Assembly (NCBI GenBank): GCA_943359525.1
Contig: CALRHV010000006.1
Coordinates: 1-54,611 of the forward strand
Reading direction: 5' to 3'
Origin: Candidatus Uhrbacteria bacterium
GTDB taxonomy: Bacteria; Patescibacteriota; Patescibacteriia; UBA9934
DNA length: 54,611 nucleotides
How positions within the stretch are numbered: position 1 is the first letter of the stretch; each line of letters opens with the position of its first letter. The notes under the pieces are model-generated. The model was not told the DNA's origin, did no database searches, and was given only the letters and a program-made list of their open reading frames with translations. A program made the translations under genes and the position numbers. Of the stretch, positions 26,845 to 42,628 are shown piece after piece.

Positions 26845-27765
26845 CTAGTAGTCGCCAACAAAAATCGTCGTCAGCGTTTGTGCATAGCTTCCACCAATTT
26901 GCGACGAGGAAATAGATGCCTTCAGCGTCAAAAAACCGCTGTTAGAAAATGACGCCGCCGATGTACTCCCAACTAATGCAGGATTGGTCGAAAAAGCACT
27001 GTCCTGAGTATCAAATGTAGACGTTGCAAGTGTTGTGTCGGAAGAACGGGCTCCGTATTCGCTATCACCAGCCGTCACGGCGCCATCCAGCACAGCGGCA
27101 AGCGTGTCCGATCCAGACCGCAGCGTGCCATCAACAAACGCATACACTCCGAAACCCTGCGAAACATCTGCTGAAGCAACCCAACCAATGATCTGCGTTG
27201 TTACCACCGAAGACGCGAGTGTTCCCAAAGCATTTGTCGCAATCTGCGACATGCGATATGCCATATCATTTGATCCGTCGATCGTTGGTGTGCTTCCAGA
27301 ATATGAAGAACGGATAGTGATGTTGGCACCAGAAATTCCAGTGATCTCACCCATCAATGCGACTTGCGACGCGCCCTCGTCCTGAATGACCACCATCCAG
27401 TCTCCCACGGAAAATCCGGCTGCCGTTGTGACGGTGACCGTATTTGCCGAAAAAGCTGTTGCGGCGACCTGAGTGGCCCGATCTTCGACGTATGGAATAA
27501 AATTGACGACCGCGTCGTACGTGCCAGCACGGAACCCTTGATCCACCTTATAGCTCGTAGATGTTGCACGTGAATTCGATGCTGTGCCGCCGGCACTGTC
27601 CCGAAGCCCATAAGAAGCGGAAGAACTATTTCCGCCACCCGAGGAAAACTCGTCCCACTGGATCTGATAGTTGGTCGACGACATCGCCGCGAGGGCTAAT
27701 TCGAGATGTAAACCAAAAGAAACCGCTAACATTAAACAAAAAATGCTTACTTTTGCCTGTTTCAT
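26845..27765 (-). CDS. Secreted protein, 306 aa
   Basis: Signal peptide MKQAKVSIFCLMLAVSFGLHLELALA; MSSTNYQIQWDEFSSGGGNSSSASYGLRDSAGGTAS. Confidence 0.75.
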   Translation of the reverse strand: MKQAKVSIFCLMLAVSFGLHLELALAAMSSTNYQIQWDEFSSGGGNSSSASYGLRDSAGGTASNSRATSTSYKVDQGFRAGTYDAVVNFIPYVEDRATQVAATAFSANTVTVTTAAGFSVGDWMVVIQDEGASQVALMGEITGISGANITIRSSYSGSTPTIDGSNDMAYRMSQIATNALGTLASSVVTTQIIGWVASADVSQGFGVYAFVDGTLRSGSDTLAAVLDGAVTAGDSEYGARSSDTTLATSTFDTQDSAFSTNPALVGSTSAASFSNSGFLTLKASISSSQIGGSYAQTLTTIFVGDY

Positions 27766-27966: not shown

Positions 27967-27990
27967 AAATTGTTTCACGTGAAACAATTT
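27967..27990. promoter_or_regulatory. parS: parS site 1
   Basis: AAATTGTTTCACGTGAAACAATTT, containing consensus TGTTTCACGTGAAACA (27971-27986). Confidence 0.9.
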
Positions 27991-28066: not shown

Positions 28067-28083
28067 TATAAGTCTGGATATAC

Positions 28084-28206
28084 AAAACGCCGTCATTTGC
28101 GACGAGTTTGGGTGCATGGCAAGCAAATCTTTTGAGACGTACTTCATGGTACGTTGAAAAAGTTTGCGATGCCATAAGCCCAAAATCGGCCAAATGCCGG
28201 CGTTTT
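28084..28206. repeat. Long-hairpin element A
   Basis: AAAACGCCgtCATTTG...CGTACttcatgGTACG...CAAATGccGGCGTTTT. Confidence 0.85.
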
Positions 28207-28207
28207 G

Positions 28208-28283
28208 TGGTGGACCTGAGCGGATTCGAACCGCTGACCTCTGCAATGCGAATGCAGCACTCTACCAACTGAGCTACAAGCCC
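28208..28283 (-). tRNA. tRNA-Ala (anticodon CGC), CCA encoded
   Basis: GGGCTTGTAGCTCAGTTGGTAGAGTGCTGCATTCGCATTGCAGAGGTCAGCGGTTCGAATCCGCTCAGGTCCACCA. Confidence 0.93.
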
Positions 28284-28409
28284 TAGAATTTCCTCAATTG
28301 GCCGATTTTGAACTTGCAACTACACAAACTTGCTCAACGTACCATGAAGTACGCCTCGCAGGCTTTGTTTGTTGCGCGTCCAAACTCGTCTCAATTGAGA
28401 AAATCCTAG
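28283..28409. repeat. Long-hairpin element B
   Basis: CTAGaATTTcCTCAATTG...aaCGTACcatgaaGTACGcc...CAATTGAGaAAATcCTAG. Confidence 0.85.
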
Positions 28410-28419
28410 ATCAGTTTCA

Positions 28420-28443
28420 AAATTGTTTCACGTGAAACAATTT
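28420..28443. promoter_or_regulatory. parS: parS site 2
   Basis: AAATTGTTTCACGTGAAACAATTT, identical to site 1. Confidence 0.9.
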
Positions 28444-28456
28444 GCCACACATAAAT

Positions 28457-28581
28457 ACCAATGGTCATTTAAATTGCGAAATGCTAGGAGTTGCGAGGAC
28501 CAAAGTGAGCCGTACTACAGCGTACGGAGAACGAGGACCGGAGCAACGACAACGCAGTTCGCGATTTAAATGACCATTGGT
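28457..28581. repeat. Long-hairpin element C
   Basis: Perfect 18-bp terminal stem ACCAATGGTCATTTAAAT/ATTTAAATGACCATTGGT; core CCGTACtacagcGTACGG; overlaps ACCA 3' end of tRNA-Arg. Confidence 0.88.
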
Positions 28582-28654
28582 GATCTCGGCGGGAGTTGAA
28601 CCTGCAACCTTGTCCTTAGGACGGACCTGCTCTATCCAGTTGAGCTACGAGATC
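28578..28654 (-). tRNA. tRNA-Arg (anticodon CCT), CCA encoded
   Basis: GATCTCGTAGCTCAACTGGATAGAGCAGGTCCGTCCTAAGGACAAGGTTGCAGGTTCAACTCCCGCCGAGATCACCA. Confidence 0.92.
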
Positions 28655-28657
28655 ATA

Positions 28658-28784
28658 CTGAAACTCCCACATTTGGTCTATTTCCGGCTCACGTCATCGC
28701 AAATTTCCTCAACGTACCATGAAGTACGCCTCGGAAAATTTGCTCAACGTTCACCGAAACTAGCCTCAAATGTGAAAGTTTCAG
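28658..28784. repeat. Long-hairpin element D
   Basis: CTGAAACTcccaCATTTG...aaCGTACcatgaaGTACGcc...CAAATGtgaaAGTTTCAG. Confidence 0.85.
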
Positions 28785-40469: not shown

Positions 40470-41396
40470 TTATTCTTTTGATGGTTTTCCGTGAAACTTT
40501 GAGTATACGCGTTTCAATTCCTTATCGGTAATGTGCGTATACACCTGTGTCGTCGTAATCGATTCATGTCCGAGGAGTGACTGAACGGATCGGATATCTG
40601 CGCCGTTGCGAAGGAGGTCGGTAGCGAAGGTGTGACGAAGCGTATGTGGAGTGACGGCCTTTGTGATTCCGGCGAGGCGAGCGTAGCGATCAACGATACG
40701 CTGAACGGATCGCGGAGTAAGCGGGGCAGGGGATTCAACATTATGACGCGCACGATCATGGCGAACAAAAAGATAATCGGAAACATCGCGACGCCTTTCG
40801 AGATACGATTTCAAAGCCCGTTTTGCATCATCTGCCAGAAAAACCACACGATGCTTGCTGCCTTTTCCCTTCACCGTGAACTCCTCGCGCTTCAAATTCA
40901 CTTGGTCGATGCGGAGTCCGGCGCATTCCGATACTCGAAGACCGGTCGAGAACAACAACTCCAAGATCGCTTTATCGCGTAGTCCGACCAACGAATCGTC
41001 ACCATCGGGACCCGTAAGAAATCGCGTCAGCTCTTCCGGCTCAAGGAACGTGACATGCCGCGTGCCCTGTTTTGCGAGCTCGATCTTATCAGCAGATAGC
41101 GTCTTGATATCGCGCTTCGCCAAATATTTCAAAAATGCCCGCAAGGCGATGAGGTGATAATTTTGTGTGTTCTTTTGTAACGACTCCTCATCTCGCCCCG
41201 CAATGTCGCGATTCAGATGCAATCGATACTTTCGCACCATTTCCAGTTCAATCTCCCCCGGATTCGGCCACTTTGCCCATTCCGCGAAGCGATGAAGGTA
41301 AAAATTATAATTTTTCGTCGTTTTATCGCTCCTTCCCCGCTCAATCTCAAGATACTCACAAAACTCCCTCATCAAATCCTTCAACACCTTTGCCAT
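40470..41396 (-). CDS. Tyrosine recombinase, XerC/XerD type
   Basis: ELLFSTGLRVSECAGLRIDQVNL, TPHTLRHTFATDLLRNGADIRSVQSLLGHESITTTQVYTHI. Confidence 0.93.
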   Translation of the reverse strand: MAKVLKDLMREFCEYLEIERGRSDKTTKNYNFYLHRFAEWAKWPNPGEIELEMVRKYRLHLNRDIAGRDEESLQKNTQNYHLIALRAFLKYLAKRDIKTLSADKIELAKQGTRHVTFLEPEELTRFLTGPDGDDSLVGLRDKAILELLFSTGLRVSECAGLRIDQVNLKREEFTVKGKGSKHRVVFLADDAKRALKSYLERRRDVSDYLFVRHDRARHNVESPAPLTPRSVQRIVDRYARLAGITKAVTPHTLRHTFATDLLRNGADIRSVQSLLGHESITTTQVYTHITDKELKRVYSKFHGKPSKE

Positions 41397-41560
41397 ATTC
41401 GAGGAGTATAGCAAATTTTTGCGACACATGAGACATCACAAAGAAACATAGCTAATCCTAGACAAAAAGCGAGAAAACTGCTATAATTTCTCGTCACCCA
41501 ATTTGCGCGTGGCCCGTAGCTGGAGAGCTGTTTTTCGCACCTTTGGAGGTTTCCATACGG

Positions 41561-41815: not shown

Positions 41816-41894
41816 GTCGACCCCAGATCTCCGACGCCGCGCGTCCGTTCCGCTGAAGCCGCCCTGGCCTCACGGTCCGGACGCGCTTCTGCTT

Positions 41895-42020
41895 TGAGAA
41901 CTTCCTTATTTTGTCTATTTTTGGCTTGCTTCGTCGTAAATTCGCTCACCGTACCGCGTAGTACGCCTCGCGAATGTACTCCTCACGCACCAAAACTAGC
42001 CTAAAATAAGAAAGTTCTCA
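41895..42020. repeat. Long-hairpin element E
   Basis: TGAGAACTTcCTTATTTT...cCGTACcgcgtaGTACGcc...TAAAATAAGaAAGTTCTCA. Confidence 0.85.
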
Positions 42021-42412: not shown

Positions 42413-42417
42413 CAACA

Positions 42418-42540
42418 AGAACTTCCTCATTTGGCCTATTTTCGACTCACATCGTCGCAAAATCGCTCAACGTACCAAGAAGTACGCCTCGCGAATTTTG
42501 CTCCTCGTTCATCGAAACTAGTCTCAAATGTGAAAGTTCT
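42418..42540. repeat. Long-hairpin element F
   Basis: AGAACTTcctCATTTG...aaCGTACcaagaaGTACGcc...CAAATGtgaAAGTTCT. Confidence 0.87.
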
Positions 42541-42628
42541 ATAGACATCCCGTGCACCGCATCGTGATACGATGTCGGTACACGGGATTTTCACTATTTA
42601 TCCGCGGCCCATTTTTCGCCGCCAATCT

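Follow-up and report, generated by a model that had tools for sequence, protein, structure and literature searches.

Oriented tRNA-adjoining hairpin elements with variable ends and a conserved fold in Candidatus Uhrbacteria and related bacteria

Elements A to D, four consecutive imperfect palindromes around two tRNA genes of a Candidatus Uhrbacteria genome, appear to represent a so far uncatalogued family of mobile, non-autonomous hairpins in Uhrbacteria and their relatives with oriented, tRNA-directed insertion, a reading that we hold, from sequence comparison, at about even confidence. As to the overall kind of element, an undescribed, non-autonomous mobile hairpin resembling ERIC and the Rickettsia palindromic elements (RPE) is the best reading, and a host RNA-processing role is its main rival. 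The window, i.e. the whole stretch of DNA that was analyzed, comprises 54,611 nucleotides, and the genome under study (G000; Uhrbacteria, CPR/Patescibacteria) contains 864,550 bases on 23 contigs. Its assignment follows from RmuC relatives with 83-90% identity, which carry the name Candidatus Uhrbacteria.

The tip CGTAC-N6-GTACG occurred six times in the window (at 28138, 28338, 28511, 28713, 41950 and 42471) compared to 0.09 expected occurrences. The four elements and the arms quoted in the initial annotation were present in the sequence at the places given there, and the proposed core CGTAC-N5/6-GTACG could be narrowed, since the tip is found in A to D with a loop of 6 nt in all four and of 5 nt in none. 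Folding of each element over its whole length, also claimed previously, was borne out with z-scores of -6.4 to -11 relative to dinucleotide shuffles on either strand, while 0 of 200 shuffles folded as well. The outer arms are indeed self-complementary though they differ between copies (94% for A, 28082-28099/28191-28208; 93% for C, 28457-28484/28554-28581). Grouping all four elements into a single family was appropriate for A, B and D, which occur in mixed orientation (aligned as inverted repeats, A and D share 77% over 112 nt) and scored 123-135 bits with the family covariance model, but less so for C with 39.9 bits. C is a divergent relative or subfamily, which was also present at the corresponding tRNA in the congeners G003 and G004.

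Table 1. Family elements and tRNA genes in the window (structured strand, CTTC strand; bits, score with the family covariance model)
Feature	Position	Strand	Description
Element A	28082..28208	+	structured (CTTC) strand +; 133.2 bits; 3' end of structured strand flush with 3' (CCA) end of tRNA-Ala; antisense to tRNA-Ala; outer stem AAAACGCC/GGCGTTTT, terminator-like
tRNA-Ala (CGC)	28208..28283	-	flanked by elements A and B
Element B	28281..28409	-	structured strand -; 122.8 bits; structured-strand 3' end flush with tRNA-Ala 5' end; sense to tRNA-Ala
Element C	28457..28581	+	structured strand +; divergent subfamily; 39.9 bits; structured-strand 3' end flush with tRNA-Arg 3' end
tRNA-Arg (CCT)	28578..28654	-	flanked by elements C and D
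Element D	28656..28784	-	structured strand -; 135.2 bits; structured-strand 3' end 3 nt from tRNA-Arg 5' end; sense to tRNA-Arg
Further family copy	41893..42020	-	between small genes; 121 bits
Further family copy	42414..42542	-	directly after stop codon, upstream of NYN-domain gene; 129.6 bits

The covariance-model search suggested in the initial annotation, carried out with a model built from 33 copies, yielded 37 primary matches in the genome under study, which together with C amount to 38 elements (at least 37 copies) of approximately 128 nt each, as well as copies in congeners, family and order. Exact tips were found 35 times in the whole genome and the reversed control pattern 0 times. 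Within the genus the copy number was roughly 20-60 per genome, with many copies in four congeners and about 60 in G004, and the same structure with different letters was observed in the genus and, sporadically, in the family and order. The family was thin elsewhere in the phylum (copies in 7 of 191 other phylum genomes), and the tip motif GAGRCGUAC..GUACGNYGA was also encountered in further classes of the phylum. A phage search for the family returned no match, and the four IMG/VR contigs that contain the tip motif did not match the family model. No description of the family was found in the open-licence literature, and one may exist elsewhere. The ends vary while the fold is kept, unlike in the usual small palindromic repeats, which are recognised by conserved ends; distant members would therefore be missed by sequence-based repeat finders and require a covariance model.

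The fold that the alignments predict is a helix of ~55 bp with tandem G·A mismatches at fixed places and a short closing tip. Among the 33 aligned copies of the genome under study, 95.6% of the base-pair cells were paired, two-sided changes affected 31 of 49 pairs, and the covariation score was 0.502 compared to 0.180 for shuffled alignments; with slid partners it did not exceed 0.094. Across genera (38 matches, nearly all from other genera or families, fitted to the model and including one row that is an opposite-strand match), 92.5% of the cells were paired and two-sided compensatory changes were present in 45 of 49 pairs, with a score of 0.756 versus 0.226 after shuffling. The compensatory-change signal was reached in 0 of 500 shuffles. 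Selection on structure, as the initial annotation had suggested, is thus supported by covariation far beyond shuffles and slid controls, also between copies at one orthologous site: 15 same-site pairs between G000 and its congeners contained 62 double changes from one Watson-Crick pair to another, and the compensatory pattern recurred in those pairs that share 84-92% identity (A, D, Leu-CAA, Arg-GCG and C16:5423). Some of the low-identity same-site pairs may be replacements or independent insertions. Single changes at the same sites comprised 24 from Watson-Crick to G-U versus 12 from Watson-Crick to A-C, which is only suggestive (two-sided p 0.065).

Closer examination of unpaired columns revealed that columns 41-42/89-90 and 54-55/76-77, in which GA opposes GA, are invariant or nearly so, and unpaired G26·A106 and G34·A98 are also among the least variable columns. 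G-U cells outnumbered A-C cells (136 versus 17, or 34 versus 15 when the four columns with G-U as the rule are set aside), and in A, B and D the CTTC strand was favored by both RNA folding energy (difference 9-22 kcal/mol) and DNA folding energy. The conserved unpaired G·A tandems and the one-strand G-U bias are signs that the functional unit is one single folded strand with the tip CGTAC-TTCNNG-GTACG, selected as RNA or ssDNA. A mutational artefact could mimic compensation without selection if template-switch quasi-palindrome correction copied one arm into the other, which would yield two-sided changes at fixed sites. However, the mismatch columns and certain G-U pairs have escaped correction and are among the most conserved, and the orientation toward tRNAs described below would be unexplained; since conserved mismatches remain unrepaired, we consider this explanation very unlikely.

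Conservation rises toward the tip, and the ends are the least conserved part. In 52 of 81 copies the arms nevertheless stayed paired up to a common end point (within 4 nt), so the loss of outer-stem complementarity in other copies, which the initial annotation named as a possible refutation, was not what we found. Away from terminator sites this end is defined by a sharp stop of pairing, often at the consensus AGAACTTTCTC/GAGGAAGTTCT, with AGAACTTTCTC present in part of the family copies, and the 5' flank alone carries a weak A/T-rich motif. In front of coding sequences (e.g. the mreB-like gene at C2:95200) the arm at this end gives a GAGGAAG stretch, which appears Shine-Dalgarno-like. A DDE-type MITE, ERIC/RPE-like, moved via terminal inverted repeats whose ends have drifted since, would be in line with the element length, the intergenic placement and the defined end with its consensus in many copies. 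Yet the ends are least and the tip is most conserved, and no significant target-site duplication (TSD) signal was apparent beyond a small excess of flush direct repeats of 2-3 nt (12 of 81 copies versus about 6 expected, none longer), which leaves this origin improbable.

Orthologous sites were occupied or empty in different congeners, indicating that copies come and go, and this presence/absence pattern agrees with the mobility of a repeat family that had been proposed. The locus rmuC/tRNA-Arg/tRNA-Ala ranged from four elements down to none across ten genomes. The rpsG-fusA spacer measured 141 nt in G000 and 157 nt in G004, in both of which it contains an element, and 18 nt in G003 and 5 nt in G005, while G014 harbored a separate copy of the sister-genus type. 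The copy at 42414 was absent from the NYN site of the congener G002, the flanks being contiguous there, and decaying copies with deleted cores were detected at rpsL-rpsG of G003 and at the C16:11145 site of G004. Comparison of these sites suggests that family copies are both gained and lost. The G002 orthologue of D (L088:2722-2905) contained two extra inserted palindromes, the perfect TTCACCCCGCTTCTCGCGAGAAGCGGGGTGAA and the nearly perfect TCACGTCGTTCGTGAACGACGTGA, hinting at other small palindrome families.

Family copies lay flush with tRNA genes (0-8 nt gap) far above chance. In the genome under study 14 of 38 elements were located within 7 nt of a tRNA compared to about 0.3 expected in intergenic DNA, assuming an intergenic fraction of 8-15%; eight of these adjoined the tRNA 5' end (sense) and six the 3' end (antisense). 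The 3' end of the CTTC strand faced the tRNA in 14/14 cases in G000, in 17/17 in G004, where the opposite end of one copy lies 7 nt from another tRNA, and in 4/4 in other genera. After orthologous sites were merged, 25 distinct tRNA ends remained, all with one orientation (p 3e-8). In the Gly-Thr spacer the element was reversed between G000 and G004, its 3' end abutting Gly in one and Thr in the other. This flush, oriented placement against tRNA genes is new here, and neither the fixed orientation nor the conserved tandem G·A loops and the one-strand bias had been anticipated by the initial annotation. The mirrored rule would be predicted by a role at the DNA level or by insertion in a set direction, but neither by a sense-RNA role nor by random palindrome insertion. 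It provides a sharp, testable constraint on either an insertion mechanism or a tRNA-linked function in CPR bacteria, about whose mobile elements and RNA processing little is known.

Several additional features were noted. Whole tRNA transcription units (tRNA-Met, tRNA-Leu+Val and tRNA-Lys), with palindromic terminators or elements at their ends, were inverted in place between two congeners with flanking gene order kept; such inversion was rejected as the cause of the orientation rule, as units do flip but flipping creates no fixed facing end. Exact parS-type sites (TGTTTCACGTGAAACA) were located at 27971-27986 and 28424-28439 of the window and occurred around tRNA-Arg/tRNA-Ala/rmuC in all five genus members (2, 3, 3, 3 and 10 copies) and in none of five sister-genus loci; the cluster is probably a ParB loading zone near the origin. 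The sister-genus loci exhibited a different array of nested palindromes (CGAGCTCAGCTCG...) 3' of tRNA-Ala, and positions 26845-27765 of the window gave a weak match, scoring under the family cut-off, to the CPR-type pilus protein PamT.

Compensatory change at fixed sites exceeds the expectation for an inert selfish insert, and a host role may therefore exist. According to this possible but less favored explanation, tRNA leaders and operon transcripts would include the hairpin, which would govern RNA processing or stability (e.g. via RNase P, RNase III or exonucleases) and be retained by host selection. This would agree with the preservation of structure at orthologous sites, with GA internal loops conserved as in protein-binding RNAs and with a shared -10-like GATATCCTC box that precedes the element at tRNA-Lys and tRNA-Met and would place it in the leader. 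On the other hand, the transcript runs opposite to the structured strand at tRNA 3' ends and in the rpsG-fusA spacer, most tRNAs are without an element, and the occupied sites vary between congeners.

The relationship between outer stems and tRNA terminators was apparent from a comparison of plain and occupied sites. Most tRNAs of the genome under study end in a plain palindromic terminator beginning directly after CCA. Behind tRNA-Ala, G003 has the plain terminator CAAAACATCGGC-loop-GCCGATGTTTTG, whereas G000 and G004 have CAAAACGCCGGC[core]CGGCGTTTTG; similarly, tRNA-Val-GAC is followed by a plain terminator in G004 and by a core within the corresponding stem in G000. The variable outer stem at these sites is thus the terminator, and sharing a stem with the terminator would be one of the causes of outer stems that vary from site to site but always pair. 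At tRNA 3' ends the copies have a stem followed by a T-run (A: GGCGTTTT; Val: CGGTGCTTT), which is missing from most other copies. The terminator role put forward in the initial annotation finds support in part, at the copies adjoining tRNA 3' ends and not at most others, and an explanation by terminators only was rejected for most copies, since tRNA leaders and the rpsL-rpsG-fusA operon also contain elements. Either the core may have inserted into the terminator, or the outer stem may have given rise to the terminator, and plain terminators could be core-deleted elements instead of ancestral empty sites. The comparison suggests a possible route by which a repeat takes over the loop of a tRNA terminator without killing the terminator.

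The involvement of a single-strand Y1 (RAYT-like) transposase, which would make the family a REP/REPIN-type element, was raised by the initial annotation and is in keeping with the strand-asymmetric hairpin, the weak motif restricted to the 5' flank and the presence of one Y1 gene near rpsL in the genome under study (C10:19096-19671, 191 aa; weak REP-associated-transposase match). However, no Y1 gene was detected in the copy-rich G002 and G011, Y1 presence did not follow copy number over 60 genomes (Spearman rho 0.06), no family element directly flanks the Y1 gene, and the elements measure 128 nt instead of 20-40 nt, making this alternative quite unlikely. The tyrosine recombinase in the window (40470-41429) could be typed only to Pfam Phage_integrase.

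For the mobile hairpin that we favor, a putative enzyme encoded elsewhere would recognise the folded strand (ssDNA or RNA) and insert it with its 3' end adjoining a tRNA gene or the end of some other gene. Stem sequence would be free and structure would not, so that stems drift with compensation, and at tRNA 3' ends the outermost stem would be captured from, or recruited as, the intrinsic terminator of the tRNA. Only tentatively, the family might constitute a new class of mobile element, distributed through a candidate phylum and defined not by sequence but by a folded single strand with tandem G·A mismatches along the hairpin; its putative enzyme would read tRNA genes symmetrically from both sides and always set the 3' end of the strand against the tRNA or inside the terminator hairpin next to it.

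Among known systems, Rfam structured RNAs share a covarying conserved single-strand structure with the family, but no Rfam family reached threshold on A to D (gathering threshold and E<=1), the best sub-threshold match being a miRNA family with 26 of 90 bits. Integron-type attC boxes (RYYYAAC/GTTRRRY) were not found at the base, where the consensus is NNARAC/GTYYT with G in 70% at the position that needs a pyrimidine in attC; conservation is concentrated in the tip. As in MITEs, there are multiple copies and insertion polymorphism, while shared terminal inverted repeats are not, the arms pairing within a copy and differing between copies. REP/REPIN elements with RAYT are likewise strand-asymmetric hairpins with many intergenic copies; the family differs in length, in showing no dedicated Y1 partner by co-occurrence and in having just the weak 5' foot motif where a GTAG or CGTC tag was looked for. 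Intrinsic tRNA terminators correspond in layout and position to the outer stem at tRNA 3' ends, but the family has a structured core of ~100 nt replacing the short loop and most of its copies elsewhere. RPEs are palindromes of similar length (105-146 bp) in small genomes of dependent bacteria and are known for insertion inside genes (PMC2229807), unlike the intergenic, often tRNA-flush copies described here. ERIC/IRU, the enterobacterial 127-bp imperfect palindromes, have TA termini and TSD (PMC2229807), of which none were seen here, and they differ in sequence, element A having no match in 20,395 E. coli records (blastn, word 11). The reviews consulted (PMC2229807, PMC10969869) do not mention tRNA genes. 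With ERIC/IRU the family shares its length, the imperfect palindrome, the intergenic location and tens of copies in numbers varying between relatives.
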